From contig ONQD01000017.1 of assembly GCA_900319865.1 (NCBI GenBank), positions 1 through 43,399 on the forward strand: a DNA stretch of 43,399 nt, read 5' to 3'. How positions within the stretch are numbered: the stretch's first letter is position 1; each line of letters begins with the position of its first letter. The translations under genes and the position numbers were made by a program. Below are positions 12,115 through 29,279 of the stretch, one piece after another. The notes under the pieces are model-generated. The model was given only the letters and a program-made list of their open reading frames with translations, was not told the origin of the DNA and made no database searches. Origin of the DNA: an uncultured Bacteroidales bacterium. Lineage in GTDB: Bacteria > Bacteroidota > Bacteroidia > Bacteroidales > P3.

Positions 12115-12161
12115 GGTATTATTATTATGATTGTTGTACATTTGAAAGTGTTGCAGTGGGG

Positions 12162-14186
12162 CTATTCCTTATAGCGTGTGGCGACCACATAGCCCTCCTT
12201 CTTAACATCGCGGTTGGGCTGGGCGGTGGTAATCTCAATCTGCTTTTCGGGCACACCCAGTCCCACCAGATGGTGCTGCAGGATGTTGTTGTGGCGTTGG
12301 TGGCTCACAGAGTCTTTGGCGTTGCGCACTTGCAGCTCCATGCTGAGCACCAGGAACTCGTCGTTCTTGGCTATCTCGGCCAGCTGGTCGATTTGGTAGA
12401 GCTGCTCTGACGTGAAAGAGGGCTCTTCCATATCCACCTCTATAAATACTTCTCCGTTCTCGTTGACCGAGGCATCGCTGCCCAGCAGGCGTGCCGGCGA
12501 GGTTGCTACCTTAATTATCAGGTTGCCCAGCGTTTTCCACACCATCTTCATGTAGCTGAATTTGGGATTGTCCACGTTGCCGCTCACGGGCACAGAGAGG
12601 TTCACTTTCTCGTCCTTGTCCTTCAAGATATACAAAGCAGCGCGCACGGGCAGGTGGAGGCGGGGCTTCACGTCGGTGCGTTTCTCGCCAAACTCGGGTT
12701 TGTATATGTCTATCTCGTTCTTGCCGTTCAGTTGGCTGTGATTAATGGTATTGATGCTGCTGAAGCTGAACACGCCGTCGGCAAAGGGCATTCCGAAATA
12801 CTCCACCATATAGGGGCTGAGGTCTGTGATGTGCAGTCCCTTGATGTTGATGCTGAGGCGTTGCATCTCTTTCCAGTGGTTGATGTTGCCTGCCCATTTC
12901 ACCATTGTCACACCGCCGTTGGGCATTTTGGCAAACACGCGGGCGTTGTTGTTGCCTCTCGAACTGATGTCGTCGGCCTCAATCTTGATGTCGGTGATGG
13001 GGAACACAAAGTCGTCCTTCAAAGTGTGGTCGGCAAAAGTGAACGCCATATCGCGCAGGGCAAGGTGTCCTACACGAAGTTTCAATTCCGGCGCGGGGAC
13101 GGTGTCGGCCTCGGGAGCAGGAGCTTCTACGCTGTCGGTCTGCATGGAGGCAGAGTCGGTGGCGGAGGTACTTGGTGCCAGCAACCTCGAAAAAGTGTTG
13201 GTGCTGTCGTCGAAGAGCTCATAGCGAGTCTTCAAGCCATTTATTTCAATGCTGTTGATGTCGTAGAGATTCTGTGCGGGCACTATCTTTTTGACGTCTA
13301 CGGCAAAGTGGTTCATGCTGGCCACCGACATGTGACTGAGGTCGCGGATGTCCACATTGTCGAGATTCACTTTGGCGGCGATGGCCGCGTTGGCAAAGTC
13401 GGCAAGATTGCCTTTCGCATTGGCATTCAGTTTCAAGTGTCCTTGCAGCCGGTCAATGTAGGCCACATTGACAATATAGGGCTTTATCTGGTCCAGTTCG
13501 AAATGGTCCAGTCCCACCGAGATGTCGAAATCGCTTGTACGGCCGTCAATAAATGCCTGGGCTTGCAGAACGCCTCCGTTTTCAAACTCCAGCGTCAAAC
13601 CGGCATCGGTCTGTTCCGACCCGCCAATCGAGAAGTCGGGCACATGGAGATCCAAATCCTTGAAGCCCCAATTGCTGTTCCGTTGCACATCGTGGTAGTT
13701 CGCCCTCCCGTTCGAGAAACGGATATTGTGAAGGCTGATTACCCATGGGCTCGGAGTGGTGTCCTGCGGCTCTTCGGTTTCGGTGGTGTCGCTTTGGAGA
13801 AATTCCAGCATGCTGCTGAAATTGAACCGCGAGCCGTTTTGCAGCACCCGTACATCCAGACCCGACAGGGTGATATGGCGCAGATAAACCGTCTGGCCAA
13901 GCAGACGCAGCAGCGAAATGTCAACATCCAATGTGTCGAAGCCGGCAAACTTGTCGGTGCCGTTGTCCTCGTATATGGCCAAGCCGTTCACTGCCACATG
14001 TCCGGTGAAAAGATTCATGCCCACATGCTCCACACTTCCGCGACGTCCCAGGATGTCTTCGGTGTGGTTGTTGACATAGTTTTTGGCGACGCATCCTCCG
14101 AACAGCGTTCCGAACAATAGAACCAATAATATAAACCCAATCAGACTGGATAAAACAATCAGGCTGATTTTTAACCATTTATTCAT
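12162..14186 (-). CDS. DUF748/AsmA-like membrane-anchored protein
   Basis: The 674-residue protein starts at ATG 14186 with one transmembrane segment at about 5-30. A long periplasmic beta-rich region with AsmA/DUF748 character follows (GHVAVNGLAIY, LYILKDKDEKVNLSVPVSGNVDNPKF). Proteins of this type are thought to sit in the envelope, and AsmA relatives are linked to phospholipid or outer-membrane homeostasis. Its exact role here is not shown by sequence. A low-complexity Ala/Pro/Thr/Asp insert lies near residues 345-375. The upstream extension to 14213 lacks a signal-anchor start and would run back into the -7 box. It lies 47 bp upstream of the double protease gene, so the two may be cotranscribed. 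Confidence 0.75.
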   Translation of the reverse strand: MNKWLKISLIVLSSLIGFILLVLLFGTLFGGCVAKNYVNNHTEDILGRRGSVEHVGMNLFTGHVAVNGLAIYEDNGTDKFAGFDTLDVDISLLRLLGQTVYLRHITLSGLDVRVLQNGSRFNFSSMLEFLQSDTTETEEPQDTTPSPWVISLHNIRFSNGRANYHDVQRNSNWGFKDLDLHVPDFSIGGSEQTDAGLTLEFENGGVLQAQAFIDGRTSDFDISVGLDHFELDQIKPYIVNVAYIDRLQGHLKLNANAKGNLADFANAAIAAKVNLDNVDIRDLSHMSVASMNHFAVDVKKIVPAQNLYDINSIEINGLKTRYELFDDSTNTFSRLLAPSTSATDSASMQTDSVEAPAPEADTVPAPELKLRVGHLALRDMAFTFADHTLKDDFVFPITDIKIEADDISSRGNNNARVFAKMPNGGVTMVKWAGNINHWKEMQRLSINIKGLHITDLSPYMVEYFGMPFADGVFSFSSINTINHSQLNGKNEIDIYKPEFGEKRTDVKPRLHLPVRAALYILKDKDEKVNLSVPVSGNVDNPKFSYMKMVWKTLGNLIIKVATSPARLLGSDASVNENGEVFIEVDMEEPSFTSEQLYQIDQLAEIAKNDEFLVLSMELQVRNAKDSVSHQRHNNILQHHLVGLGVPEKQIEITTAQPNRDVKKEGYVVATRYKE

Positions 14187-14210
14187 GTTGCGTACATATT
14201 TTAAGCATTG

Positions 14211-14218
14211 CAAAGATA
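14211..14218 (-). promoter_or_regulatory. -7 box for the DUF748 gene
   Basis: The minus strand reads TATCTTTG, a perfect TAnnTTTG box, 25 bp before the ATG at 14186. No clear -33 TTTG was found at the usual distance. Confidence 0.6.
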
Positions 14219-14372
14219 TGAAAAAAAAACTATTTCTCGACCCCTTTTTTTCGATGGTTCCTCTTTTTTGTGTTGTGATGGAACTAATGACCGCAATAGT
14301 GTATGTGTACCAAGCGTTTGCAGGAATGTCCCTGCCCCCTATGCCGTTACTTTTCTGTAGCTTTGTCTGTCC

Positions 14373-14570
14373 TGTACACTCAAATTGCTCCTTCGCTGTA
14401 GGTTCGCTGAAGGTTCTCTATTTCAACGCTACTTCAACGGCATTTCAACGCTTTTAGAGCGTGGAAATGGCGTTGAAGTAATGTGAAAGTAGTGACGGCA
14501 GAGCGAAGAAATGGCGGAGCCACAGCGAATTGGAATGTCACTTTCGTCCGATTTGGGATAATCGTGTACA
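14373..14570. repeat. Imperfect inverted repeat of about 200 bp
   Basis: The core arms 14431-14452 and 14458-14480 pair over about 20 bp with few mismatches around a 5-nt loop. Farther out, TTCGCTGT near 14392-14399 is mirrored by ACAGCGAA at 14522-14529, and TGTACA occurs at 14373-14378 and 14565-14570. No reading frame lies inside. It could be a miniature mobile element or an intergenic repeat, but no target-site duplication was identified. Confidence 0.45.
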
Positions 14571-14819
14571 ATGCCACTTTGGTTTCTTTCTATTCTATCC
14601 CTGATTCATGCATTGGTGAGGCGGTAATGTAATGCTGTTCGGGATTAGGGTTGGTGCGGGTGGGGTAGGGGACTGTTGTTGTTATTACTGGGTCATAACA
14701 GTGAAGGGCTAACGAAATGGAGGGCGTGGGTTGGATTTGTAGCTGCTTTGAGGTGAATGGATTGGGAGGATTGTGGGGGTGAAATGTGAAAGAAAAACGT
14801 CTAATTTAAAAAAAAAACG

Positions 14820-14827
14820 TATTTTTG
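14820..14827 (+). promoter_or_regulatory. -7 box for small membrane protein
   Basis: TATTTTTG matches TAnnTTTG and lies 28 bp before the ATG at 14856. The -33 region is A-rich with no TTTG. Confidence 0.6.
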
Positions 14828-14855
14828 CATTTTAAATGCATAAATTGATTCTATT

Positions 14856-15365
14856 ATGAATACTACCGCTGTTAAAACTCAATCCCTTTGGCGCACTGCG
14901 CTTATTGATGTTGTATTGATTACTGTTGCCTGCTTGGTGCCTACATTGTCACACCTGGCTGCTGTGCCTCTCTATCAGCTTAATCCTATGCTGATTGTGC
15001 TTATGACTGGCATGCTGCTGGTGAACGACCGCCGCAACGCTTTTCTGCTTGCGGTGCTTCTACCTTTGGTGTCGATGCTGGCTGTGGGTATGCCCACACC
15101 GGCCAAAGCCCTTTGTATGGGGGCGGAATTGCTGACGTTGGTATCGGTATTTACACTGATGCAGAGCCGTTGGGGATTTGCATCGGCTAGTGTGGCCGGA
15201 CGTTTCACGGCTGTGGTTGCAGCCATGCTGTGCGGCAAGATGGTCTATTATGCACTGAAGGCTGTTATTATTGCTCCCGCAGTATTGATATCTACCCCAT
15301 GGACTATTCAGCTGCTGGTGATGATTGGGGTTGCATTGCTGTTTGCGTTGTTGCAGCGCAAATAA
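14856..15365 (+). CDS. Small integral membrane protein, possibly ECF transporter S component-like
   Basis: The 169-residue protein has about five hydrophobic segments, near residues 15-35, 43-56, 60-76, 85-100 and 110-165. Charged residues are confined to loops (NDRRNA, QSRWGF). Its size, the short loops and the GMPTPAKALCMGAELLTL stretch recall substrate-binding S components of energy-coupling factor vitamin transporters. I cannot assign the family or a substrate with confidence, and no ATPase or T component lies nearby. The start at 14856 follows a good -7 box by 28 bp. The next gene begins 46 bp after the stop, so the two could be cotranscribed. Confidence 0.6.
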   Translation: MNTTAVKTQSLWRTALIDVVLITVACLVPTLSHLAAVPLYQLNPMLIVLMTGMLLVNDRRNAFLLAVLLPLVSMLAVGMPTPAKALCMGAELLTLVSVFTLMQSRWGFASASVAGRFTAVVAAMLCGKMVYYALKAVIIAPAVLISTPWTIQLLVMIGVALLFALLQRK

Positions 15366-15411
15366 AATGGTAGGCTCAAGGCTGTTATTGTTATTCCAAA
15401 TACAAACGACG

Positions 15412-16215
15412 ATGAAAAAACTCTTTGTAATGCTTTTTGTCGCGGCATCGGTTGGACTGATGGCTCAAGCTGCTCCTGCCGACAGCAACGCCAAGGGCAA
15501 GGGACTCTTTTCGGTAGGTCCGCAGCGTCAGGTGCGTTTCTCGCCCGGCAATCTTCAGTATCAACCCACAACTCACCTTTGGCGGTTTGCGCCGCAGCAG
15601 AATCAGGTGCAGGGTTGGGAACCCTATTTTGCCAACGGACGATATAAAGGCTGGATAGACCTGTTTGGTTGGGGAACGGCACTCAGCCCGGAGAATTATT
15701 CTGAGTCGGCCTCGGACTACTCTTTTGTGGATTGGGGCACCTTTTGTGGGTTGCCAACCGATGGGGGACTGCGTTGGCGCACTATGTCGCTCGACGAATG
15801 GACCTACCTTTTGAGCAAACGCCCGCATGCCCGCAGGCTTTACGCTTTGGCCTATGTGGAAGGCAAGTACGGCCTTATATTGCTGCCCGACAATTGGAAA
15901 AGTCCCAAGGGGGTGTATCTGAAAACCGGTCCCAAGGAGGATTATGTGAATGTGTGCAACGAAGAGAAGTGGGCAAAACTGGAGGCTGCCGGGGCCATAT
16001 TCCTGCCCTCGGAGGTGAAACGCCTGGGCACGGAGTCGCAGGGCGGCGCATCGATATGCCATTATTGGATGACCTCGTCGAACAGCAAGAAGACTGGCGA
16101 GTCGCTCTATTTGTTGGTCGACTCGTATTTGCCGCAGGTCAAGTCGGCCTCGCGCGCCAACGGATTCTCGGTGCGTTTGGTGCAGGATGTTGAGACTGCG
16201 GAACCCGAGCAGTGA
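15412..16215 (+). CDS. Secreted FISUMP-like protein of Bacteroidetes
   Basis: The 267-residue protein starts at ATG 15412 with a signal peptide ending near LMAQAAPA. The mature part has the pattern FSVGPQRQVRFSPGNLQYQ, LWRFAPQQN, GWIDLFGWGT and later YGLILLPDNW, LEAAGAIFLPS and NGFSVRLVQ. I associate this pattern with abundant secreted or lipoprotein families of Bacteroidales related to the Fibrobacter paralogous FISUMP/sulfatase-modifying-factor-like fold. Biochemical function is unknown. The longer frame from 15325 overlaps the upstream gene and lacks a signal peptide at its start. No sorting domain or lipobox is evident. Confidence 0.7.
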   Translation: MKKLFVMLFVAASVGLMAQAAPADSNAKGKGLFSVGPQRQVRFSPGNLQYQPTTHLWRFAPQQNQVQGWEPYFANGRYKGWIDLFGWGTALSPENYSESASDYSFVDWGTFCGLPTDGGLRWRTMSLDEWTYLLSKRPHARRLYALAYVEGKYGLILLPDNWKSPKGVYLKTGPKEDYVNVCNEEKWAKLEAAGAIFLPSEVKRLGTESQGGASICHYWMTSSNSKKTGESLYLLVDSYLPQVKSASRANGFSVRLVQDVETAEPEQ

Positions 16216-16263
16216 TGTGACTGGGAGTAGTTATTGACAAAAGAGATACTGTATTTTTCAACT

Positions 16264-16953
16264 ATGAATATTGCTGTTGTTTTGGCCGGTGGGACCGGTA
16301 CAAGGGTAGGAGGTGATATACCCAAGCAGTTTGTCGAGATAGATGGTCGCAGCGTTATAGAGCGTTGCATCGACGCTTTTGATTGTGCGGAAATGATTGA
16401 TGAGGTTGCCGTAGTGGTGCATCCCGACTGGATGGAACACATGCGGCAGATAGTGTTGAAAAATAAGTGGAAGCGGGTGACGAAACTGATTGACGGAGGA
16501 AGCGAGCGGTATATGTCGAGCCTGAATGCTATAGATGCTTATATTGATTACCCCGACGACACCAACTTGTTGCTTCATGACGCGGCACGCCCGTGGGTGT
16601 CGCAGAAGGTGATAGGAAGAGTGGTGGAGGCTTTGAACCATTTCGAGGCGGTGGGGGTTGCTATTCCTTCAACCGACACGGTGTGGGAGGTGTTTCAAAC
16701 CTTTGACTCGCAGCTTTCGAAGATTGTGACTCGGATACCGGAACGCAACACTATGTGGCGTGCCCAGACCCCACAGGCATTCCGCCTGCCGTTGATAAGG
16801 GATGCCTACCAATGTGCGCTGCAAGACCCAAATTTCCGGGCAACCGACGACTGCGGTGTGGTAAAAAGATACATGCCCACAGTGAAAATCCACATCGTGG
16901 AAGGAGAAGAACAAAACCGCAAGATAACTTTTAAGGAAGACCTGCACTCGTGA
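16264..16953 (+). CDS. IspD/TarI-like cytidylyltransferase
   Basis: The 229-residue protein begins VLAGGTGTRVGGDIPKQF, the CTP-binding loop of the IspD/TarI group, and contains LLLHDAARPWVS and AQTPQAFRLPLI, both typical of that group. IspD makes CDP-methylerythritol for isoprenoids, while TarI relatives activate ribitol 5-phosphate for surface polymers. Sequence inspection alone does not separate them. A true IspD is plausible, but the phosphonate/LicD operon 2.4 kb downstream makes a role in activating a surface-polymer precursor possible too. ATG 16264 is chosen because it directly precedes the Rossmann strand. The longer frame from 16234 starts at a TTG. The gene is followed convergently by the IgGFc-binding protein. 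Confidence 0.8.
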   Translation: MNIAVVLAGGTGTRVGGDIPKQFVEIDGRSVIERCIDAFDCAEMIDEVAVVVHPDWMEHMRQIVLKNKWKRVTKLIDGGSERYMSSLNAIDAYIDYPDDTNLLLHDAARPWVSQKVIGRVVEALNHFEAVGVAIPSTDTVWEVFQTFDSQLSKIVTRIPERNTMWRAQTPQAFRLPLIRDAYQCALQDPNFRATDDCGVVKRYMPTVKIHIVEGEEQNRKITFKEDLHS

Positions 16954-17002: not shown

Positions 17003-19237
17003 TTAACGTATCAGTGTTACTGAACCAAAGAGATAGAATGTTTCTTTGGGTGAAGAGGTTGTCTTGTATCGTATTTTGTACACATAAGTTCCGCTGGGGC
17101 AGTCTTTTCCATTGTGTGTGCCGTCCCAAAATTGTGTGAGTCCATCAAATCGTGTTAGAAAAACACCCATACGATGATATATCACAACGTCCGCTTCCAA
17201 AATATTATTGGTGTGAAAGATGCGGAATACTTGATTGCTGTTTTGATTGGGAGTGAAGACGTTGGGTGCCCAAATATTGACTGTGTCGAAATGAGGCTCG
17301 GGAGGAAGAACTGGGGTTCGGGGGCAATGATAGGTTGAAAGAGTGTAGACAATTGAGCTGTCTGCACCATGAACGTCGGTATTAAGTTGAGTGATTGAGC
17401 TGTCGTAAGAGAAGATGAAGCCATTCCACAGGAAAGGAAGCAGGGTGTCGCATATAGTCGTGTCGTAGTGAGTTTCAGAATTCGGCCAAACCTTTAAGTG
17501 ATAATAAATAGTGCTGTCGCATCCCTTTGTGCTGATAAAATGGAATTGAACCCCATCAACATCGTTGAAAAAGGAACTGTCGCCAAAGTGAATGGGTGTT
17601 TGGTTTTGGACACAGGTGTCATAAACATTTGTAGTGTAGTTGGGATGGATGTGAACCGTAGTGCAAAGGGTGTCGGTGAAGCTTGTTTGGTCTGTTTCAT
17701 TGGCTCGGTAGTTGACTATTGCACAAAGAGTATAATCTCCAATGGTATTGAATGTATAGATAAAGGGATTGGTTGTCTGGGAGAATCCGTCGGAGACGGA
17801 CCATCTGACACTGTCGATTGTTCCATCGCAATTGATCTGGAAGGTGGACGAGTTACCTTCACAGAGATTCATCCCGTTGGGGAAATCTGTGCTGGGGAAA
17901 TTGTTGATGGTTAATTGAACTTCGGGAATGATGGGAGTGATGATTCTGTTGGAATAGCCCAATGTGTAGCCATAGCTGACACGATTACCATAACCGTAAA
18001 TGCAGGCAATAAAACCGGAAGTGTCGGTTGAATAAATGGAGTGAGGTCCAGGAATAAGGGGTTGCCGGAGATGAGCGTAATTCGGGGCGTTAGGTAAGGG
18101 AGTAAAAGTGGCATAGTTTCCATCTATGCGGATATGGGAGGTGGCAGAGGTTGGGCAGATGATGTTGGCAGAGTGACTTGAGATGTTGGATGTGTTGATG
18201 ATTGGGAAATTGATACCTTTAATGCTCTGCTCGATAGGAGGGATTGTGGTCATAGATGGGTCGCCGTTGCCTGCACCATTGGTGCTCGGGAAATAGATGT
18301 AAACCATAGCTGGTTCGCTTGTTTCGATGTAGTCGATGTTGTTGGACATAACATACTCGTATGTCTCAGTCTGATTGATTGTTGTTATATTATTGCCGTT
18401 GATAGAGATAACGCAGTTGTCGTTGAGTGCTGTGATTCGAACATAATCGGAAAAAGAGATGTCGGAACTGGGTACAATGAATTTAGTTCCCCAGTATTCG
18501 GTTGGAACAGCCTGTTCGACTACATGATCACAACTGGGGCGAATGTTGGTATTGGGAATATAAATGCAGGCATCGCCATTGAAGACGGCTATTTTTTTGC
18601 CATTTTGGGCTGTGACAATAGTTCCTGACAAGTCGCCCGGGGTTGTGCTTTGAACCTGATAGGCTTGGCCGGCGTGTGCTATAGTCACATTGTATGTTTG
18701 GCCATCGTGATGTCCATCAATAGAGTTGCCATGTTGTTGAATGGTCACGGTTACATTGTCTTCTGCGGCAACAATGACAAATTCGCTATAGTAGTGTGCG
18801 GAGGGATAGGTTTGAATAATATAGTTGGAGCGCAGCATGGAGGTAGGGATAATGTTTGTGTAGTCCAGATTTGGATATCCCTGTATGATTGCAAAAAGCG
18901 AGATGGTGTCGGTAGAGGTTACATGTAGACCAGTGTTTTGTATTCTGCCTGAGTTGGTATTGAAGGCCTGGGATGTGGGAATGTATAGACGATTGGTGCC
19001 AGTTGGGTTAATAGTCATCGAACTGCTCCATCCGGTATTAGGATTGGTGATGTTGAGAGTGCAAGGATTTATGGAATTGGCAAAAATACTAAGGGTTTGA
19101 GGCCCTGGAGTTGTATCGATATTATCCATGAAAGTGAGCCAAAAATCAGTACCAGTAGTGTTTTGTGTTTGTGCAAAAGAATTATTTATGCTGCTGATAC
19201 ACAATATAGTCAATATGAGTAATAATGGTTTCTTCAT
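17003..19237 (-). CDS. IgGFc-binding-domain surface protein, T9SS type B sorting tail
   Basis: The 744-residue protein starts at ATG 19237 with a signal peptide ending near NSFAQ. The mature N terminus, GTDFWLTFMDN, and the following beta-rich 400 residues match the IgGFc-binding domain found in many Bacteroidetes surface proteins. A PKD-like stretch follows (LCEGNSSTFQINCDG...). The C-terminal 90 residues (WAPNVFTPNQN, FWDGTHNGKDCPSGTYVYKI) are a CHU_C/gliding-associated type B sorting domain, so it should be exported by T9SS to the cell surface. Ligand is unknown, and the domain name does not prove IgG binding. The gene is A/T-richer than its neighbours. The -7 box ends four bases before the ATG. 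Confidence 0.85.
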   Translation of the reverse strand: MKKPLLLILTILCISSINNSFAQTQNTTGTDFWLTFMDNIDTTPGPQTLSIFANSINPCTLNITNPNTGWSSSMTINPTGTNRLYIPTSQAFNTNSGRIQNTGLHVTSTDTISLFAIIQGYPNLDYTNIIPTSMLRSNYIIQTYPSAHYYSEFVIVAAEDNVTVTIQQHGNSIDGHHDGQTYNVTIAHAGQAYQVQSTTPGDLSGTIVTAQNGKKIAVFNGDACIYIPNTNIRPSCDHVVEQAVPTEYWGTKFIVPSSDISFSDYVRITALNDNCVISINGNNITTINQTETYEYVMSNNIDYIETSEPAMVYIYFPSTNGAGNGDPSMTTIPPIEQSIKGINFPIINTSNISSHSANIICPTSATSHIRIDGNYATFTPLPNAPNYAHLRQPLIPGPHSIYSTDTSGFIACIYGYGNRVSYGYTLGYSNRIITPIIPEVQLTINNFPSTDFPNGMNLCEGNSSTFQINCDGTIDSVRWSVSDGFSQTTNPFIYTFNTIGDYTLCAIVNYRANETDQTSFTDTLCTTVHIHPNYTTNVYDTCVQNQTPIHFGDSSFFNDVDGVQFHFISTKGCDSTIYYHLKVWPNSETHYDTTICDTLLPFLWNGFIFSYDSSITQLNTDVHGADSSIVYTLSTYHCPRTPVLPPEPHFDTVNIWAPNVFTPNQNSNQVFRIFHTNNILEADVVIYHRMGVFLTRFDGLTQFWDGTHNGKDCPSGTYVYKIRYKTTSSPKETFYLFGSVTLIR

Positions 19238-19290: not shown

Positions 19291-19298
19291 TACCTTTG
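19291..19298 (+). promoter_or_regulatory. -7 box of the phosphonate operon
   Basis: TACCTTTG matches TAnnTTTG and lies 38 bp before the first ATG of the operon. No TTTG box at 19-21 bp was seen upstream, only an A-rich tract. It lies back to back with the IgGFc gene promoter, about 41 bp away. Confidence 0.65.
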
Positions 19299-19336: not shown

Positions 19337-20659
19337 ATGAATAATACTATGGAGAGGAAAAAGGTATATGTCGGTATGAGTGCTGATATGATACATCCAG
19401 GACATCTCAATATTATCAAGGAAGCCTGCAAATTGGGGTCAGTGACTGTAGGAGTGCTTACAGATGCTGCCATAGCCAGCTACAAGAGGTTGCCTTATCT
19501 GAACTATGAACAACGGGCGGAAATAGTGTCGAACATAAAGGGCGTGGACAGAGTGGTTCCCCAGACTACACTAGACTATGTGCCTAATTTGCTGGAACTG
19601 AAACCCGACTATGTGGTACACGGGGACGATTGGAAAGAAGGTGTGCAACAAAAGACCCGTCAACGTATTATAGAAACAATGGCTCAGTGGGGAGGAAAGG
19701 TGATAGATATACCCTATACCCAAGGGATATCGTCTACGGCGATGAATCAGAGGTTGAAGGAAATCGGTACAACACCAGAGATAAGGATGAAACGTTTGCG
19801 CAGACTGATTAATGCGAAAAAGATTGTCCGCATTATGGAATCGCACAACGGTCTTACGGGACTCATCATTGAGAATACTTTTGTAGAGGTGAACGGAGTA
19901 AAACAGGAGTTTGACGGAATGTGGGCAAGCTCGTTGACCGATTCGACCAGCAAAGGCAAGCCCGACATCGAAGCTGTGGATGTTACAACCCGACTGCATG
20001 ACTTAAATGATGCATTGGAGGTGACGACAAAACCTGTTATTTTTGATGGAGACACAGGTGGAAAGATTGAGCATTTTGTGTTTACGGTTAGGACATTGGA
20101 ACGATTGGGTATTTCGGCAGTTATCATAGAAGACAAGGTGGGTTTGAAACAGAATTCACTGTTCGGTACAGATGCTGTGCAGACACAGGACACAATTGAA
20201 GGGTTTTGTGCAAAAATCAGGGCTGGGAAAAATGCTCAGGTGACGGATGACTTTATGATAATAGCAAGAATTGAATCACTGATAGCAGGTAAGCCAGTAT
20301 CGGATGCATTGGAACGTGCACAGGCGTATGTGGCTGCTGGAGCTGACGGGATAATGATTCATAGCAAAAATAAAGATGGTATGGATATCAAGGAATTCTG
20401 TACAAAATTCCGCGAAAAAGATATGTCCACACCTATTGTTGCAGTTCCGACCACATACAATCAGTATACCGAAGATGAGCTTGCATCGTGGGGTATTAAT
20501 GTGGTGATTTATGCCAATCACTTGTTGAGAAGTGCATATCCCGCAATGGTTAATTGTGCAAAATCGATATTGACTCACGGGAGGAGTTTGGAAGCCTCAG
20601 AGAACTATTGCATGTCGATTAAAGATATACTCACTTTAATACCTGGTACAAAGAAATGA
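19337..20659 (+). CDS. Cytidylyltransferase-PEP phosphomutase fusion
   Basis: The 440-residue protein has two domains. Residues 8-145 form an HxGH nucleotidyltransferase (HPGH at 20-23, GISSTAM at 130-136), most like glycerol-3-phosphate cytidylyltransferases. Residues about 155-430 are a PEP phosphomutase with the diagnostic [10 protein letters not shown] at 265-274, DGDTGG at 237-242 and an ARIES motif. The mutase converts PEP to 3-phosphonopyruvate, the first C-P bond step. The attached transferase probably activates a phosphonate as its CMP ester. Fusion of the two functions is known in phosphonate clusters. The start could also be ATG 19349. The stop overlaps the next ATG (ATGA at 20656). 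Confidence 0.9.
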
Positions 20660-21798
20660 TTACTGCTCAGTTTTTTGTGGAGACGTTGCGAGGTGAGGGA
20701 GTGGATTTTTATACGGGAGTGCCCGACTCTCTTCTGAAATATGTGTGTGCATATATAACTGATAATGTGGATGCCAAGCACCACATTATTGCTGCCAATG
20801 AGGGTGGAGCGGTAGGACTGGCTGCAGGTTACCATTTATCGACAGGGAAAGTGGGATGTGTATATATGCAGAATTCGGGCGAGGGGAATGCGGTAAATCC
20901 GCTGGCTTCGCTTATAGACAAGGAGGTGTATCACATTCCATTGCTGTTGTTGATAGGTTGGAGAGGCCGCCCAGGGGTACACGATGAGCCACAGCATGTA
21001 AAACAGGGAAAGATAACAACCGGATTGCTGAATGTGCTAGGAGTGAATTATGAGGTGTTGAGCAAAGAAGAAAGTGTAGCCGGTCAACAGATAAAGAAGG
21101 CAATGTCCAGTATACGAGAAACAGGTGAGCCTTTCGCATTGGTTATTGAGAAAGATACCTTTGAATCGTATGAGTTGAAAAATAAAGTAGATTATGGCTT
21201 TACAGTATCGCGTGAGGATGCTATTAAAACAGTGACAGGGTATCTTCCAGATGATGCTGTGATAGTTAGTACTACTGGTATGATAAGTCGGGAACTATTT
21301 GAGTACCGCACCTCCATGGGACAGGGACATCATCGTGATTTTCTCACCGTGGGTTCTATGGGGCACGCATCGATGATAGCTCTTGGCATTGCAATTAACC
21401 AGCCAGAAAGGAGAGTATACTGTTTTGATGGCGACGGTGCCACTTTGATGCATATGGGCAATTTGCCTATAGTGGCAAGTGCAGAACCACGTAATTTTGT
21501 TCATGTGGTATTCAATAACGGTGCTCACGACTCGGTGGGTGGACAACCTACGGTGGCTGTGAGGATTGACTTGGCTGGTGTTGCACGGTCGGCCGGTTAT
21601 CGCCATGTGGTTACTGTAGATTCGATTGAGAGTTTTAACTCATGCAAAGATTTATTGACACAAGATGGTCCGGTATTGATAGAGTTTCGTGTTAAAAAAG
21701 GTAATCGAAAGGATCTTGGCCGACCCACGACAACTCCTGTTGAAAATAAGAAAGCACTGATGAGATTTCTACAATCAGATGACTTGAAGAAAGATTGA
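20656..21798 (+). CDS. Phosphonopyruvate decarboxylase
   Basis: The 380-residue ThDP enzyme decarboxylates 3-phosphonopyruvate to phosphonoacetaldehyde, the irreversible step that pulls the unfavourable mutase reaction forward. Glu49 in [11 protein letters not shown] is the cofactor-activating residue. [12 protein letters not shown] at 259-270 followed by NN at 287-288 is the Mg-ThDP binding motif. The length matches single-chain bacterial Ppd. Its ATG overlaps the mutase stop by 4 bp, and its TGA overlaps the region of the next start, so expression is probably coupled within one operon. Confidence 0.92.
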
Positions 21799-21800
21799 GA

Positions 21801-22895
21801 ATGCAACGTATTTTATTTGGAATAGACAATCTAAAAAACGTCATTGGGACGCTTAAGGTAAAGAAGGTTCTCCTAGTGGCTGATTCATCGTTTGGATTTT
21901 TAAATATTAGGGATTCAATCGAAAGTCAATTGGAAAAGTATGTCTTTTTTGACCATTTCGATTCAAATCCACAATATGATAGTGTTTGCGAAGGAGTTAG
22001 TGTGTTTAATGACAATTGTTGTGACGCGATTGTGGCTGTTGGAGGAGGAAGCAGTATGGATGTGGCAAAGTGTATAAAGCTTTACTGCCGAATGGATAGT
22101 GGCCGAAACTATTTGGAGCAAGATTGTATTGATACGGGCATACCAATTGTTGCGATTCCCACTACTGCGGGTACTGGAAGTGAATCCACACGGTTTGCAG
22201 TGATTTACTACCAGGGAGCCAAACAATCGGTAAATCATATTAGTATTATTCCTGACTATGCTATTTTGGAACCGAAAGTGTTGAAGACTTTGCCCGACTA
22301 TCAAAAACGTTGCACATTGATGGATGCTTTGTGTCAGGGTATTGAGTCGTGGTGGTCTGTTAACTCTACTCCACAATCGCAGGCGATATCTAAAAAGGCG
22401 GTGGAAATGCTTTATGATAATCTGCGTGCCTATCTTCAAGGAGATGAAGAGTCTTCTGCTCGTGTGATGGAGGGAGCTAATTTGGCTGGACAGGCTATCA
22501 ATATCACCCAGACCACAGCTCCGCATGCTTTTAGCTATAAACTAACATCTATGTATAAATTGCCACACGGACATGCAGTGGCATTGTGCATGAGGGAAAT
22601 ATGGCCCTACATGCTAAAACATTTGAACAAATGTGTTGACAAAAGAGGGACAGCACATCTGGAAAACGTGTTGGATGAAATAGCTAATACGTTACATTGC
22701 AAGAGTAGGGAAGAGTCTGTGGAGATGTTCAGTTCGTTGGTTGATTCACTTATGTTACAAAGACCACAATCTCTTTCAAGAGAAGCGGATTTGGTAATAT
22801 TATCACAGTCGGTTAATCCGGTAAGACTGAAGAATCATCCCATCGAATTGAATGAATTGGATGCTCGTAATATTTATGAAAGGATAGTACAATGA
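21801..22895 (+). CDS. Iron-type alcohol dehydrogenase, probable phosphonoacetaldehyde reductase
   Basis: The 364-residue protein belongs to the group III (iron-containing) alcohol dehydrogenases: GGGSSMD at 81-87 and PTTAGTGSEST near 120-130 bind the dinucleotide, and LPHGHA carries a metal-ligand His. In this operon it should reduce phosphonoacetaldehyde to 2-hydroxyethylphosphonate, replacing the aminotransferase that would give aminoethylphosphonate. The motif that normally reads DALxHAIE is DALCQGIE, so one expected metal-ligand His is Gln. I cannot tell whether this is typical of the subfamily. The start is either ATG 21801, or TTG 21795 overlapping the upstream stop; ATG was preferred. 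The stop overlaps licD by 4 bp. Confidence 0.85.
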   Translation: MQRILFGIDNLKNVIGTLKVKKVLLVADSSFGFLNIRDSIESQLEKYVFFDHFDSNPQYDSVCEGVSVFNDNCCDAIVAVGGGSSMDVAKCIKLYCRMDSGRNYLEQDCIDTGIPIVAIPTTAGTGSESTRFAVIYYQGAKQSVNHISIIPDYAILEPKVLKTLPDYQKRCTLMDALCQGIESWWSVNSTPQSQAISKKAVEMLYDNLRAYLQGDEESSARVMEGANLAGQAINITQTTAPHAFSYKLTSMYKLPHGHAVALCMREIWPYMLKHLNKCVDKRGTAHLENVLDEIANTLHCKSREESVEMFSSLVDSLMLQRPQSLSREADLVILSQSVNPVRLKNHPIELNELDARNIYERIVQ

Positions 22896-23587
22896 GGGAA
22901 TTATTGGTAAAAATCGCCATAAAGTTGGGTGTGTACCAACAGATGATGAAGGTTGACAACCACATCCAGATGAAAAAACAAAACAAGGCATTCGCCCAAT
23001 ATGGATTGCAGACATTGGACGAAGCCATGAAAGCGGCCAAAGAAGCAGGGACAGAGCTTTTTTTGGCTTTCGGTACCCTATTGGGTGCATATAGGGAAAA
23101 GGGGTTTATTCCATACGATTGCGACCTAGACACAGGCATGCTGGGAGACCAACAATCGCAGCAATTTTTGGATGCTATGCAGCGTCATGGTTTACGACAT
23201 ATTCGAAGGTATTATGTGAAAGAAACAGGCAGGATATGTGAGGATAAATTTGAATATATGGGAGTTCATATTGATGTACACTATTTTTACAAGGATGAAA
23301 ATGGGGAGTTGTTCTGCGACTTATGCCTTCCCCACGAAACAAAAGACTGGCGTACGGCAAATGCATCTGATGGATTCCCGTCCATTGTTAGAACTGTTCC
23401 ATACAGCACGTTTGAGGAGAAGGATTTTATGGGTATTAAATGTTTTATGCCTGAAAAAGTTGTGGACTGGTTGAAAACTCTGTATGGGGAACATTTTATG
23501 ACACCAGACCCCAAGTGGTCTATGGGTGATCACAAACGCAGGGCCCAGAGTCGGGGTGAGCGTTTGTATAGGGTGGAATTGAATTAA
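22892..23587 (+). CDS. LicD family phospho/phosphonotransferase
   Basis: The 231-residue protein has the LicD nucleotidyltransferase-fold core: FGTLLGAYREKGFIPYD, then CDLD near residues 60-78, and a later acidic motif, GVHIDVHYF. LicD proteins move phosphocholine or similar groups from a CDP carrier to glycans. At the end of a phosphonate operon it most likely transfers 2-hydroxyethylphosphonate from a CMP-activated donor to a surface glycan or lipid, on the cytoplasmic side. The ATG overlaps the upstream stop (22892-22895), making all four genes one transcription and translation unit. It is A/T-richer than the flanking housekeeping genes. Acceptor unknown. Confidence 0.85.
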   Translation: MRELLVKIAIKLGVYQQMMKVDNHIQMKKQNKAFAQYGLQTLDEAMKAAKEAGTELFLAFGTLLGAYREKGFIPYDCDLDTGMLGDQQSQQFLDAMQRHGLRHIRRYYVKETGRICEDKFEYMGVHIDVHYFYKDENGELFCDLCLPHETKDWRTANASDGFPSIVRTVPYSTFEEKDFMGIKCFMPEKVVDWLKTLYGEHFMTPDPKWSMGDHKRRAQSRGERLYRVELN

Positions 23588-23784: not shown

Positions 23785-24687
23785 TTATTTGCCGAGTAAC
23801 CCTCGTGTGACATTTCTACGGAAAGCCACCAGCTTGTTTCCTTTGGTGCATTCTCCACGAATGGCGAATCCGCACCACAGTGCTATCGTGCCTCCCCATT
23901 TTACAGCCTCTTTGCACAGGCGGTTTAGGTATTTTTTGCGCGAGATTTGTTGTGTACGGTAACGCTCGCTAACGCCAATACTATAGGTGAGACGGTCGAA
24001 GTAATCCTGGGTGAGCTTGTGGGGTGGGATGATGTGGTAGAGTATTGCATTGGGAAGATAGTAGAAATGCATGCCGTGTGTGGTCATTTTGTCGAAGAGG
24101 TCTTTTTCCTCTGCTCCGATGAGGCTGTTGCCTTTGCGCCCCAGTTCCACATTGAATAGTCCAACGGTGTCGAAAACACTTTTTCGGTAGCATGCATTGC
24201 CGCCACCAGGGAAAGCTCCACGCGGAAATTCACGTTTGTTATTTCCTAGAAAGAGTTTGCCGGTAATGAGTTGTCGGGTGTAGTGGGTCATCCATTCGGG
24301 CTCCTCGGTTTCGTAAACGGGAAGGATGGGACCACCGGCGGCGACTGCTTCGGGATGGTGTGTGAAGAAATCGGAATATGTTCTAAGGTATTCCGGGTTG
24401 ACTGTGGCATCGTCGTCTACATAGGCCAAAAGGTCGCCTTGAGCATTTCGAATGCCACAGTTGCGGGCGTATGAGAGTCCTTGGTTTGTTTCGAGGAAAT
24501 AGCGGAAACGGATGTCGGGATAGTCGGCTTGAAACCGACGGCACTCATTCTCGGTGCCGTCGGTGCTGTTATTGTTCACCAGCACAACTTCGTACTGGTC
24601 GTGAGGATAGTCGTTTTCGGCAACGCTCTTCAGAACGTTGTATATGTACTTGTCGCGATTGTATGTACAGAGGATAACTGAAATCAT
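23785..24687 (-). CDS. Glycosyltransferase family 2
   Basis: The 300-residue GT-A fold enzyme begins ISVILCTYNRDKYI and has the nucleotide-sugar motifs VVLVNNNSTDGT and LLAYVDDDA (DDD near residue 92, Mn-binding). GPILPVYETEEPEWM and GAEEKDL lie farther on, resembling the catalytic ED region. It probably adds a sugar to a cell-surface glycan. Donor and acceptor cannot be read from sequence. Its ATG overlaps the stop of the YfhO-family gene by 4 bp, so the two are coupled. It converges with licD across about 200 bp that has no clear gene or terminator. Confidence 0.85.
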   Translation of the reverse strand: MISVILCTYNRDKYIYNVLKSVAENDYPHDQYEVVLVNNNSTDGTENECRRFQADYPDIRFRYFLETNQGLSYARNCGIRNAQGDLLAYVDDDATVNPEYLRTYSDFFTHHPEAVAAGGPILPVYETEEPEWMTHYTRQLITGKLFLGNNKREFPRGAFPGGGNACYRKSVFDTVGLFNVELGRKGNSLIGAEEKDLFDKMTTHGMHFYYLPNAILYHIIPPHKLTQDYFDRLTYSIGVSERYRTQQISRKKYLNRLCKEAVKWGGTIALWCGFAIRGECTKGNKLVAFRRNVTRGLLGK

Positions 24688-27227
24688 GCTTCTTTGACGT
24701 TTTTAGACTTGCGCTTGCGGTAATAGATAAACAGTGTGGCACCGATAATAAGCACTGTGGCTATGGAGCAGATGAGAGTGATGTGGTCCAGACGGTGCAT
24801 GGTGGGAGCTTCATTGCGGAACTCAATGACGTGATCGCCTTCGGGGATAACCATTGCACGGAGAATGTAGTTGGCACGGAGATATTCGGCAGGTTGGCCA
24901 TCGATGTATGCTTTCCAGTCGGGAGCATAGTATATCTCGCTAAAGACGGCAAGCATAGGTGTGCCGCAATGGCTGTGGTAAGTGAGTGTATTCAGGTTGG
25001 TGGGATGTTTATGTTCCATCTCTATAGTGGCGTTGCTGTCCCAAGCCAGCGCGTTCAGCCCTTTGATGCATGGTTCTGGCAGCCCGGTCAGTTTGCCGCC
25101 CATCTCAGGAATGTTGACGATAGCATCTGTGGCGGGATTAAACTCGTTCAGTTTTGTTATCTCGTCGTTGGCAGTCTCCACGGGTCGAATATTTTGTACG
25201 AACCAGCAGTTGCCCAGAGCGTCTGGATTGCGTTGCACCTGTCCGTTGTTGGCTACAATGTAACGGGTGTTAAGCATGTTCAGAATATTCGGGTTAATCT
25301 GATAACTGATGTAAAAGTCGATGATGTCTTGATAACGACGCAGTTTTGCAGCACTGTATCCGCCCACCTGGTTGTGGAAGGCAGAGGGCTTGGAGTCGTT
25401 GAAGGTGTTGACGGCAAGGTTCAGGACGCGGTAGTCTTGGTCGTTAAATTGGGCGGCTATAGCATCTATGTCGCGGTCGTACTGGGCGGGTTGCATTTCG
25501 AGCAAACGGGCATTGCGAACATAGTTCTCGCTATTGAGGTAGCGGCTGTTGACTCCTTGAAGGTCGATGACTATGAGCAGGGCCAGAACTACTGCAAGTA
25601 TAGGAGCGGATTTGGGTTTGGATGAGAAGTGTTTGATATATGCCCAAAGTGCTGCAGCAGCCAATAGGATGAAAATAATGCTGCGCCAAGAATCGCTCAC
25701 AAATAAGGCCTTTCGGTCTTTTATAAAGATGCTTTGAATTGTGGGCCATTGGTTGCCGTATTGTCTTGCCATTTCGGTGTCGGCACTACCGCTATAACTG
25801 AATCCTCCGCAAATCAAGAGGCCAATTAAAATGGTTCCAAGAGTGACTCCTGCTGAGATGTATAGACCGCGGAGCAAGCGTTTGGTGTCGTCCGGGCCTT
25901 GAGCTTTGGTTGCCTCTTTCAGTCCCAGAATGGCCATTAGAACAGCCAGTACGTTGGCCAATACCAAACTCATAGAGGGGGTGCGGAATTTATTGTACAG
26001 CGGCAGATGGTTGAATAACCACTCATTGAGGGGCATGAAGTTGCGTCCCCACGAGAGCAGTATGGCCAGAATGGTTGCTATGAGAATCCACCAACGTTCG
26101 GGTCCTCTCACTACTATCAGGGCAAAGATGAAGAGGAAGACTATAATGGCACCGAAGTAGACAGGGCCGCTGGTAAAGGGTTGGTCGCCCCAATAGAGAG
26201 GCATTTTGTCTTGATGGAAATTGGAGTAAGAGGCACTACTCTTGTCCACAGGTTCTATGCTGCCACCGCCACGGGAACCGGGAACCAGTAGTGTGTATGT
26301 TTCCCCTATGCCATAGCTCCAGCTGAATGCATAGTTGATGTCGAGACCTTTGTCGTTTGAGTTGTTGTTGCGGGGGTATTCCTGTCCATAGAGATCTTGC
26401 GGAGTTACGGTAATCTCGCTACCACCACGCATGGTGTATGCCATGTATTCTTGATTGACAAACAGGTGACGAGTGTTGCAGGCAAGAGCCAACAGAACTC
26501 CCACCACCAGAATTCCAATCGAGGCGAGTAATTGGGGAAGGTGTTTCTGTTTGATGGCATAGATGATATAAACCGCACCCATTATCACGCCAGCAATTGC
26601 GGTGTAGAATGTAATCTGAATGTGGTTGAGGGCAATCTGCAGTCCTAGTGCAAGGGTGAATAGGATTCCGCCCCACACCCAAGAGTGGATGGCTCTCTTG
26701 CGGTCTGTCCGTATTAGTCCGGCACCTTTCAGACACAGCAGTTCGGCTGCCAACACAGGAGCCATCATGGCCATTGCCCATGCTTTGGTGATATGTCCGG
26801 CCTCAATGATAATGATGTTATAGCTTCCAAGTCCAAATGCCAGCCCACCAAGTAATGCCAGCCAGGGACTGACTCCCAATGCCAGCAGGGCCACATAGAA
26901 GCCCAGCAGATATAGGAAAAGTACCCCCATATCATTCTGTCTGTTGAAGGGCTGCAAAGTGAGCAGGCTTTTGACTGGAGTGAATACCGATTGTTGAGGA
27001 CTGTTTGTAATCTGATATCCAGGCATTCCGCCAAACATGCTGGGGCACCATGTGGAATAATCGCCAGTGGCTTGATGATAGTCTTTTTGTGCTTTGGCCA
27101 TTCCCTCATATTTCTGTAGGTCGCCTTGTGGAAGGGCTTTGCCTTGCAGCAGAGGCATGAAATAGATGGCCGAAATGGCAAGGATAACTGCAATAAAGGC
27201 AGCGTGGGTAAATATGCTTTTTTTCAT
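24684..27227 (-). CDS. YfhO family polytopic membrane protein
   Basis: The 847-residue protein has an N-terminal membrane segment, a periplasmic loop (GDLQKYEGMAKAQ, then MFGGMPGYQ), about ten more membrane segments to residue 540, a large soluble region, and a last membrane segment near 815-835 before a basic tail. This layout and the GGMPGYQ motif fit YfhO, a GT-C-fold family. In Gram-positive bacteria YfhO takes part in glycosylating lipoteichoic acid. In Bacteroidetes the substrate is unknown. Coupling to a GT2 gene supports a role in modifying a surface polymer with a lipid-linked sugar. Confidence 0.82.
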   Translation of the reverse strand: MKKSIFTHAAFIAVILAISAIYFMPLLQGKALPQGDLQKYEGMAKAQKDYHQATGDYSTWCPSMFGGMPGYQITNSPQQSVFTPVKSLLTLQPFNRQNDMGVLFLYLLGFYVALLALGVSPWLALLGGLAFGLGSYNIIIIEAGHITKAWAMAMMAPVLAAELLCLKGAGLIRTDRKRAIHSWVWGGILFTLALGLQIALNHIQITFYTAIAGVIMGAVYIIYAIKQKHLPQLLASIGILVVGVLLALACNTRHLFVNQEYMAYTMRGGSEITVTPQDLYGQEYPRNNNSNDKGLDINYAFSWSYGIGETYTLLVPGSRGGGSIEPVDKSSASYSNFHQDKMPLYWGDQPFTSGPVYFGAIIVFLFIFALIVVRGPERWWILIATILAILLSWGRNFMPLNEWLFNHLPLYNKFRTPSMSLVLANVLAVLMAILGLKEATKAQGPDDTKRLLRGLYISAGVTLGTILIGLLICGGFSYSGSADTEMARQYGNQWPTIQSIFIKDRKALFVSDSWRSIIFILLAAAALWAYIKHFSSKPKSAPILAVVLALLIVIDLQGVNSRYLNSENYVRNARLLEMQPAQYDRDIDAIAAQFNDQDYRVLNLAVNTFNDSKPSAFHNQVGGYSAAKLRRYQDIIDFYISYQINPNILNMLNTRYIVANNGQVQRNPDALGNCWFVQNIRPVETANDEITKLNEFNPATDAIVNIPEMGGKLTGLPEPCIKGLNALAWDSNATIEMEHKHPTNLNTLTYHSHCGTPMLAVFSEIYYAPDWKAYIDGQPAEYLRANYILRAMVIPEGDHVIEFRNEAPTMHRLDHITLICSIATVLIIGATLFIYYRKRKSKNVKEA

Positions 27228-27266
27228 TGTGGTATTATGTTATCGATATGGGTTTTATAATGAAGT

Positions 27267-29279
27267 TTAGCGTTCTTGTTTGGGCTCTTGTTTGGTGACG
27301 GGGTAAGCAATTCGCGCATGATATATGCTCAGCATTTTGGATTTGAGTATCTGCCGTATGCGGGTAATGTCGCCAAAGGTGAGGTCGCAATTCTGTAGTT
27401 GGTGCTGATTGATTTTGCTGTCTATCACGTTGTCAACCAGTTTGTCTATAGCTTCCTTGCTATGGTTGTTGAGACTTTTGCAGGCGGCCTCAACGCTGTC
27501 CACGATCATCACTACTGCAGTTTCACGAGAGAAGGGCATGGGACCGGGATATTGGAAGTCAATAAGGTTGACGGGTTGGTCTGGGTGTTCGTTCACCTGT
27601 TTGGCATAGAAGTAACCAGTAACCGTGGTGCCGTGGTGTGTGCGTATAAAGTCTTGCACAGCAGACGGGAGGTGATACTTTTTGGCCAGACTGAGACCGT
27701 CTCTCACGTGCTGTATTATGATTCTTGCGCTTTCGGTATTGTCCAGTTCGTTGTGTGGATTGAAGTCGTTGTTTTGATTTTCGGTAAAATAGAGGGGAGC
27801 CTCCACTTTCCCTATATCATGATACAGGGCTCCAACTTTGGCGAGCAGGGCGTTTCCTCCAATCTCGTTAATAAGGTCTTCGCTGATGTTGGCAACCTGC
27901 ATGGCGTGCTGGAAGGTTCCGGGTGCGTTGCGTGACAGTTCGCGCAGGGCTGGGGTGTTGGTCGACGAGAGTTCGAGGAGTGTGAGGTTGGTGGTCAGTC
28001 CGAACATCTTCTCAAAGATGTAAATGAGGGGATAGGCCAGCAGGAAGAGTAGGGCATTGAGGAAGAACACCAGGTAGCGGCTCAAATTGAGGCCGTCCAG
28101 GGTACTCTCCTGGCTCAGCACACCAAATGTGAAAATCAGAGAGTAGGTGAGGAATATGACAATGCTGACAACAAAGAATTTGCTACGGCTTTCGAAGTTG
28201 CGCACGGTGACTATCGACATCATGCCGGCGATGAGTTGGTAGAATATGAATTCGAAGGGGTTGGGCACCATGTTGGCCAAAATGATAATGGTGGTAACAT
28301 GCACATAGAGGGCCACACGCATATCGAAGAAGATTCTCATGATAACAGGCACAATACACAATGGCACAATCAATATCAGCTCGGGATTCCAATACGATAC
28401 CAGTGCAGTGGAAGCAGACATCAGCAATATGAGAATCATTACAAATGTGACCTTTGTGTTGTCTTCCAAGATAGGGTGATGTGTATTTTTCAGGAACATG
28501 TACAAGGCCAGAAATGCAAAAATACACAACATGAATTGACCCACAAACCTCCCAAATGGGCTGTAGTGTTCTTGAAATCTCTGGCTGTTTTCTTCCTCTA
28601 ACGATGATATGATTAATGCTTGTTCTTTTGTTACAGTCTGTCCTTGAGAAATAATAAGTTGCCCCTGTTTCACCATTCCCGAGGTGGTTGTGAGTTGAGA
28701 GATACGCGAGTTGAGCTCCAGTTGTGTGCGGTTGGCATCATATACGATATTGGGTATCATTACGCTGTCGCGCAATAGGTTGTCGGTAATATCGAATTCT
28801 GTAATATACTCTTCGGGCGAGTGCTCCGAACCGATATTACCATCCAGTATTATCAGTTCGTGGGTCTTGAAATCGGGCATTTCCGAAGGAGTTTGGATGT
28901 ATCCTATTGCATAAACGCTGTCAAGAGTCTTTCGCAGTTGTTTCAGGTTGACGTATGGATGTGTGGCAGTGAGTGCGTTCAGCCGTTCCACAGCTTGGGC
29001 GTATGCCTCTTTGTTGTAGTTGAAATATAAAGTCTGTTTGGCCTTTGCGGCATTGGTTTCCTGCTCTATCTCGCTTGGCGATTTCTTTACTGCAAAATCA
29101 AAGGGTGCTACCAAGTCGTTGTCTCTCCATATACTACCTTCTACATAGTCATATTGCTCTCCCGAATAAGTGTTGGGGAACATCAGCGGAATCAAAGCCG
29201 CCGATACCAGCATCAGCAATACTTTGGTCAGTATGGGCAGATGCTTGACGGTGGCGAAAATGATATTCTTTATTTGCAT
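27267..29279 (-). CDS. 7TM receptor-type HD phosphohydrolase (PgpH-like)
   Basis: The 670-residue protein has an N-terminal membrane segment at about 14-34, an extracytoplasmic 7TMR-HDED domain to about 265, seven membrane segments at about 270-455, and a cytoplasmic HD domain. The HD domain holds ALYHDIGK near residue 485 and later HHGTTVT. PgpH-type enzymes of this layout hydrolyse cyclic di-AMP, which is the most likely role. The substrate in Bacteroidetes is less certain. It lies 39 bp upstream of the YfhO gene on the same strand, so the three minus-strand genes are a probable operon, with a -7 box at 29343-29350. Confidence 0.85.
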   Translation of the reverse strand: MQIKNIIFATVKHLPILTKVLLMLVSAALIPLMFPNTYSGEQYDYVEGSIWRDNDLVAPFDFAVKKSPSEIEQETNAAKAKQTLYFNYNKEAYAQAVERLNALTATHPYVNLKQLRKTLDSVYAIGYIQTPSEMPDFKTHELIILDGNIGSEHSPEEYITEFDITDNLLRDSVMIPNIVYDANRTQLELNSRISQLTTTSGMVKQGQLIISQGQTVTKEQALIISSLEEENSQRFQEHYSPFGRFVGQFMLCIFAFLALYMFLKNTHHPILEDNTKVTFVMILILLMSASTALVSYWNPELILIVPLCIVPVIMRIFFDMRVALYVHVTTIIILANMVPNPFEFIFYQLIAGMMSIVTVRNFESRSKFFVVSIVIFLTYSLIFTFGVLSQESTLDGLNLSRYLVFFLNALLFLLAYPLIYIFEKMFGLTTNLTLLELSSTNTPALRELSRNAPGTFQHAMQVANISEDLINEIGGNALLAKVGALYHDIGKVEAPLYFTENQNNDFNPHNELDNTESARIIIQHVRDGLSLAKKYHLPSAVQDFIRTHHGTTVTGYFYAKQVNEHPDQPVNLIDFQYPGPMPFSRETAVVMIVDSVEAACKSLNNHSKEAIDKLVDNVIDSKINQHQLQNCDLTFGDITRIRQILKSKMLSIYHARIAYPVTKQEPKQER

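Follow-up and report, generated by a model that had tools for sequence, protein, structure and literature searches.

A four-gene Bacteroidales operon as a candidate pathway for tailoring the cell surface with 2-hydroxyethylphosphonate

Which phosphonate is made by a short operon in an uncultured Bacteroidales bacterium, and is it destined for the cell surface? The operon occupies positions 19337 to 23587 of contig ONQD01000017.1 (assembly GCA_900319865.1), whose 43,399 nucleotides were analyzed as a whole and are referred to here as the window. Bacterial phosphonate capacity mostly serves cell surfaces, with tailoring steps that are described as enigmatic (PMC6697681, in part). The predicted product, 2-hydroxyethylphosphonate (HEP), would be activated with cytidine monophosphate (CMP) by one of four encoded enzymes:

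19337..20659, + strand: Fom1-type bifunctional enzyme, cytidylyltransferase-like domain plus phosphoenolpyruvate (PEP) mutase (440 amino acids; matches TIGR02320, PF01467 and structure 5x3d)
20656..21798, + strand: phosphonopyruvate decarboxylase, a thiamine diphosphate enzyme (380 amino acids; TIGR03297)
21795..22895, + strand: iron-type alcohol dehydrogenase (Fe-ADH), predicted phosphonoacetaldehyde reductase (366 amino acids; PF00465)
22892..23587, + strand: LicD-family phosphotransferase of nucleotidyltransferase fold, predicted CMP-HEP:acceptor transferase (231 amino acids; PF04991; D76, D78, D80)

A sequence-only reading of this DNA had named these four genes, and all of them hold up as open reading frames (ORFs) at these positions, with family scores far beyond chance. 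The overlaps or near overlaps that it reported at the junctions are 4 bp each (ATGA, TTGA and ATGA, in order); the one at the Fe-ADH gene needs a TTG start at 21795, and with the in-frame ATG two codons further in, at 21801, a 2-base gap would result. We consider it probable that the operon is a self-contained HEP tailoring cassette. The PEP mutase domain would convert PEP into phosphonopyruvate, the decarboxylase would turn this into phosphonoacetaldehyde, and the iron-type dehydrogenase would reduce the aldehyde to HEP. CMP-HEP would then be formed by the fusion's Fom1-like N-terminal domain, and LicD would use it as the donor to place HEP on a hydroxyl group in a surface glycan or a lipid intermediate. 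The steps as far as phosphonoacetaldehyde, judged by the curated families matched, are almost certainly encoded; formation of HEP and CMP-HEP is very likely, and transfer by LicD onto a surface molecule is probable.

The fusion scored 412 bits with the PEP mutase model TIGR02320 (cut-off 319.55) and 57.9 bits with PF01467 (cut-off 21), the PF01467 part at about residues 8–143 preceding the mutase part at about 154–438 on a single chain, and the decarboxylase scored 513 bits with TIGR03297 (cut-off 312.5). The architecture itself was already known, as PF01467 fusions have been counted in 23.6% of 1485 PEP mutases, 42 being triple fusions with PF12804 (PMC6697681, in part). For the CYTIDYLYLTRANSFERASE domain of the fusion, the closest solved relative is 5x3d (201.5 bits across residues 4–143), with 86 of 140 residues identical (61%). 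This entry is named phosphoenolpyruvate phosphomutase, and we take it to be the cytidylyltransferase domain of Fom1. The HxGH active-site motif reads HPGH and occupies residues 20–23; Ser15 and Ser48, which going by glycerol-3-phosphate cytidylyltransferase presumably lie near the active site, are present in the window fusion as in 5x3d and in the dehydrogenase loci described below. Fom1 cytidylylates HEP (Rice et al. 2019, PMC6697681, in part), and because the fused domain is 61% identical to a domain specific for HEP, we infer that it would use HEP as well.

The dehydrogenase exceeded PF00465 (125 bits, cut-off 31.3) and also PF25137. Its residues D177, Q181, H244 and H258 are, we assume, the ligand-type positions; the first and the last two were present in all 69 operon dehydrogenases compared, which are as little as 23% identical to the window enzyme, and position 181 held Gln in 59 of them and His in the other 10. 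Operon context points to action as a phosphonoacetaldehyde reductase. The LicD protein scored 38.3 bits with PF04991 (cut-off 22.6), a match limited to residues 50–86, and its predicted structure is a confident model of the nucleotidyltransferase fold with FKRP as the closest fold and a conserved acidic triad, D76, D78 and D80; lower-ranked structural neighbors (antibiotic nucleotidyltransferases, MenT1 and others) were counted as sharing the common fold only. LicD transfers from CDP-choline and FKRP from CDP-ribitol; here CMP-HEP would be the donor.

Aminoethylphosphonate (AEP) is the typical tailoring phosphonate in Rice et al. (PMC6697681, in part), and a competing explanation is that an unlinked transaminase makes AEP, the fused domain activates it and the dehydrogenase plays only a side role. 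The operon holds neither a LicC-type PntC (PF12804) nor an AEP transaminase, and the observation in the sequence-only reading that no aminotransferase or phosphonatase is visible was borne out by an NCBIfam scan of 27 window proteins. In the own genome, an AEP transaminase query from a relative recovered only a 26-bit fragment, and the phosphonatase model TIGR01422 reached only 33.4 bits (cut-off 220); as this genome is 92% complete and in 84 contigs, these absences are not absolute, which leaves some room for AEP.

We compared relatives, searching 190 genomes of the same family and finding the fusion at E ≤1e-30 in 38 of them, in 40 copies. The 39 copies besides that of the window include three main classes. 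Class A comprises 26 loci with fusions 82–93% identical to that of the window, the decarboxylase in 26, the dehydrogenase near both in 24, LicD in 20 and a same-strand ispD gene upstream in 21; the class A genome G036 (L167, L168) has the operon split, with mutase and decarboxylase on one contig and dehydrogenase and LicD matches on another. Class B, from the same genus, comprises eight AEP-type operons whose fusion is 74% identical to that of the window, a finding that favors AEP: all eight have an AEP transaminase and a separate LicC-type nucleotidyltransferase, seven a CDP-alcohol transferase, and HPGL replaces HPGH in all eight. One class B transaminase was scored and gave 449 bits with TIGR03301 (cut-off 360.8). 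The four class C loci (about 55%) are triple fusions with an additional LicC-type domain, accompanied by a dehydrogenase, and the fusion of L037 (65%, HPGL) starts within a short contig. Such triple fusions (L038–L041, L211) unite PEP mutase with a LicC-type and an HxxH domain in a single ORF of 669–689 amino acids, with a dehydrogenase nearby.

To these we added 80 named loci from 84,980 species genomes; because they are the best 80 of 571 relatives, the wider sample leans to close kin. Removal of seven duplicate loci (L078, L080, L082, L088, L102, L123, L127) left 113 distinct fusions, of which 16 (3 HPGH, 13 HPGL) had no fate enzyme, that is no dehydrogenase or transaminase, in reach. A hold-out search of 395 phylum and 393 order genomes yielded 23 further places, of which 20 were scored (L195 and L203 were already in the set and L209 had no fate enzyme); no two of these fusions are the same (pairwise identity up to 94.2%), and several are close kin. 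The 117 loci with a fate enzyme thus consist of 97 from the first set and 20 from the hold-out.

In the first set, all 70 dehydrogenase loci had HxxH and all 27 transaminase loci HPGL or HPGI. The hold-out gave HxxH in 15 of 15 dehydrogenase loci, and among its five transaminase loci one HPGI and four HHGH, the four from a single family. Across both sets, HxxH was kept in 85/85 dehydrogenase loci and the last His was lost in 28/32 transaminase loci. A same-strand LicC-type gene within 6.5 kb was found in 0/85 dehydrogenase loci versus 26/32 transaminase loci (first set, 0/70 and 24/27, or 25/27 counting L154, where this gene is fused to the transaminase); L156, a dehydrogenase locus, has one on the opposite strand, and 4 of the 70 first-set dehydrogenase loci carry the LicC-type domain inside the fusion, as triple fusions. 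Ser15 and Ser48 were each present in 84/85 dehydrogenase loci, the exceptions being a gap and a Thr, and in 0/32 transaminase loci; both were drawn from 18 positions listed before the hold-out, but this clean separation is partly post hoc because they were singled out once the four exceptional loci, L191–L194, were known.

These four loci, which pair an intact HHGH with a transaminase, speak for the AEP explanation. However, they have Gly and Lys at the positions of Ser15 and Ser48, where the window has Ser and Ser like the dehydrogenase loci and 5x3d. No same-strand transaminase of the AEP family was found within 6.5 kb in any of the 85 dehydrogenase loci and, given also the 26-bit fragment in the own genome, we regard AEP decoration as quite improbable. 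The domain of L191–L194 may be an AEP-activating form of the Fom1-type domain.

Loss of the motif appears to be more than erosion. Among the HPGL-variant domains Leu23 occurs in 39/40 and Trp79 in 40/40, so the domain is not simply decaying, which suggests a new role. Strong conservation of the new residues Leu23, His49 and Trp79 extends over L032–L036, L068–L070, L097, L098, L100–L118 and others. Two HPGL loci, L104 and L109, have no LicC-type gene in same-strand reach; seven more (L103, L105–L108, L111, L136) have a divergent nucleotidyltransferase-like gene and no recognized dehydrogenase or transaminase.

If HEP is activated, is it transferred? Among the 85 dehydrogenase loci, 46 have LicD, 20 a TagF-like transferase, none both and 19 neither, and the TagF-like proteins are a second CDP-donor transferase family standing in LicD's place. 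This pattern helps to weigh the explanation that the operon makes a diffusible small molecule by fosfomycin-like first steps, with LicD a bystander or a tailoring enzyme. The fusion, the decarboxylase and the Fe-ADH correspond to the first steps of fosfomycin biosynthesis, to which the 5x3d match also points, yet the operon holds no further biosynthetic gene, the LicD gene overlaps the dehydrogenase gene, other dehydrogenase loci carry the TagF-like family in LicD's place, and the chromosomal slot described below carries teichoic-acid-like and LicD cassettes in relatives. A small molecule is, in our judgment, highly improbable.

A narrower question is whether LicD would transfer HEP to a lipid rather than a glycan, giving a phosphonolipid; this is a sub-case of the HEP cassette and leaves its first steps as they are. 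LicD passes no curated NCBIfam equivalog, its sole match being diacylglycerol cholinephosphotransferase (46.2 of 225 bits), and no gene of the operon points to a glycan. FKRP, the closest fold, acts on a glycan and a glycosyltransferase gene borders the slot, neither of which is decisive. We consider the lipid variant unlikely.

The route from PEP through a CMP-phosphonate to a transferase, as proposed in the sequence-only reading, is independently supported by the 86 of 140 identities to 5x3d, by intact HxxH with Ser15 and Ser48 accompanying a dehydrogenase in 85 loci, by the lack of a convincing AEP transaminase in the own genome, by the confident LicD model matching FKRP and by the second transferase family in 20 of the 85 dehydrogenase loci. 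The 5x3d match, the wide distribution and the surrounding cassettes go beyond what that reading contained.

Several observations weigh against an HEP cassette. The case is built on sequence and model comparison. The Fe-ADH meets no curated NCBIfam equivalog (best, ErcA at 154 of 550 bits; PsrA, TIGR03405, 144.4 of 423.7), and it has Gln181 where Fe-ADHs usually have their second metal-binding His, a family trait rather than damage as Gln is found in 59 of the 69 operon enzymes. LicD is not HEP-specific, as 10/32 transaminase loci carry it as well; in nine of the 19 dehydrogenase loci lacking both transferases more than 5.9 kb was available downstream of the fusion, some of the others being cut by contig ends, and 13 of the 20 TagF-like calls were made by similarity alone to seven Pfam-checked seeds from the same set. 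An intact motif is by itself no proof of HEP: the simple rule that intact HxGH means HEP, without exception in the 97 first-set loci, was rejected after being broken by 4 of the 20 hold-out loci, L191–L194, where the 15 kb examined contain no LicC-type gene. Owing to this last feature they agree with a proposal in which the fused domain remains intact where it is the sole cytidylyltransferase; the triple fusions, keeping both domains, conflict with the strict form of this proposal. Finally, the motif association is broad but reflects few changes. A tree of the N-terminal domain, motif columns excluded, places the variant domains on one side of a single branch, and the mutase-domain tree needs four changes, two of them forced by well-supported branches, without rejecting a single clade of variant domains (p 0.224); independent origins of the motif change were accordingly set aside as weak.

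What surrounds the operon? The following features border it:

16234..16953, + strand: IspD homologue, a syntenic marker not needed for the pathway (TIGR00453, 174.3 bits, cut-off 181.3)
17003..19237, − strand: type IX secretion system (T9SS) type B protein with an IgGFc-binding-like domain, between ispD and the operon
19291..19298, + strand: candidate operon promoter, −7-like element TACCTTTG (fits TAnnTTTG; ends 38 bases upstream of the first ATG)
23785..24687, − strand: family-2 glycosyltransferase (GT2), convergent with the operon and forming the second border of the slot (PF00535)
24684..27227, − strand: YfhO-like membrane protein, bordering the slot (no NCBIfam match)

The consensus to which TACCTTTG was matched is presumably that of the Bacteroidetes −7 element; scans for promoters and terminators gave no clear excess over shuffled sequences (17 vs 17.1 and 7 vs 5.1). 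The G+C content is 43.0% in the operon, 51.2% at 1–16233, 48.3% at 23785–29279 and 44.2% in the remainder rightward. T9SS sorting domains in window proteins agree with the earlier description of a T9SS-type Bacteroidales, and a T9SS type B protein lies at the corresponding place in L050, L054, L057, L060 and L061. Further right, at 31015–39190, RHS-repeat protein genes (one of 2016 amino acids) lie beside a gene for a small T9SS-tailed protein.

The IspD homologue is the only near-full-length PF01128 match in its genome and hence most likely the housekeeping enzyme of the methylerythritol phosphate pathway; as a second enzyme of the phosphonate pathway it was rejected as the default. The protein that we call YfhO is core rather than operon-linked, given homologues in 166/190 family genomes, and was discarded, together with GT2, as a pathway partner; YfhO lies downstream of the operon in 13/26 class A loci. 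In five close relatives (G052, G081, G082, G101, G122) it is about 38–49 kb away on the same contig, so this border of the slot is not fixed.

We read the slot in 23 further loci of the genus, chosen for this purpose (L163–L165 and L169–L188; the genome of L187 has an AEP-type fusion elsewhere). Near its borders, 16 of 23 carry at least one nucleotidyltransferase-like gene besides the orthologue of the window ispD, and in seven none was recognized. The cassettes checked against family models are an IspD-like gene with a short-chain dehydrogenase/reductase and a PF04464-like gene (20.9 bits, below the cut-off of 22.1) in L164, an IspD-like gene with PF04464 in L185, a glycerol-3-phosphate cytidylyltransferase-like gene with LicD in L163 and a LicC-type–aminotransferase fusion with LicD in L178, as well as KdsB-like (L172) and PseF-like (L176) genes. 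In L159–L162, from species with an 80% identical YfhO, none of the genes next to YfhO matched a pathway protein, IspD or LicD when compared with the window proteins. This suggests, without proving, that the place between ispD and GT2/YfhO is an exchange site for CMP/CDP-linked decorations, apparently swapped among related gut bacteria; by way of speculation, swapping could affect surface variation toward phage, host or grazers.

A wider proposal, which we advance tentatively and with some doubt, is that Ser15, Ser48 and intact HxxH mark HEP loci, so that a few residues of the fused domain encode the phosphonate displayed, that AEP loci mostly use a separate LicC-type enzyme with the HPGL domain in a new role other than cytidylyltransferase, and that HEP is one of several interchangeable decorations of the ispD–yfhO slot. 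The comparison yields sequence rules with known exceptions, which may predict HEP versus AEP from a genome.

How does the operon compare with known systems? In the Fom1 route the decarboxylase and Fe-ADH reportedly come after the fusion. The window operon differs from the fosfomycin route in having no methyltransferase or epoxidase genes and in ending with LicD, for which reason CMP-HEP is predicted to be a transfer donor and not a methylation substrate. Fom1 of Streptomyces wedmorensis likewise has its PF01467 cytidylyltransferase before PEP mutase (PMC6697681, in part), at 61% identity in the window domain. Pnt clusters likewise combine PEP mutase with a decarboxylase and cytidylyl activation, and a LicD-like transfer to surface polymers has been proposed for them (Rice et al. 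2019, PMC6697681, in part); the window operon resembles them in joining a PEP mutase, a cytidylyltransferase and a LicD-like gene. In contrast to the characterized PntC, which is LicC-type (PF12804) and AEP-specific (same source, in part), a PF01467 domain and a dehydrogenase replace the LicC-type enzyme and the transaminase. An AEP-type locus of the same phylum, in Bacteroides fragilis strain S82 (L128), has a homologous fusion and decarboxylase; it differs from the window in that a transaminase and a pair of LicC-type genes accompany them and the fused domain is of the HPGL variant. Glycomyces and Stackebrandtia make phosphonoglycans, the subject of Yu et al. 2014, which are said to contain HEP and would be a precedent for HEP on a polysaccharide, in Actinobacteria unlike the window. 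Neighborhoods of pepM-aepY-phpC, carried among others by Arenimonas donghaensis (our L153), encode the identical three steps, and genes for glycosyltransferases and choline-phosphotransferases are reported close by (Lockwood et al. 2022, PMC9381506, in part); the fused cytidylyltransferase motif, the LicD/TagF alternation and the Bacteroidales slot lie outside that account as far as its text was available. A search by titles and the starts of abstracts found no paper on the HPGH/HPGL contrast, which is no proof of absence as subscription literature lay mostly outside the search, and 'HXGH' does not occur in PMC6697681. Individual parts of the system have precedents, including the pepM-aepY-phpC neighborhoods with choline-phosphotransferase genes (PMC9381506, in part); new within the literature searched are the assembly of these parts into an HEP version in Bacteroidales, the pattern of motif, fate enzyme and partner, with its exceptions, and the slot. 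With only four genes, the operon is a compact candidate for the whole pathway of HEP tailoring.

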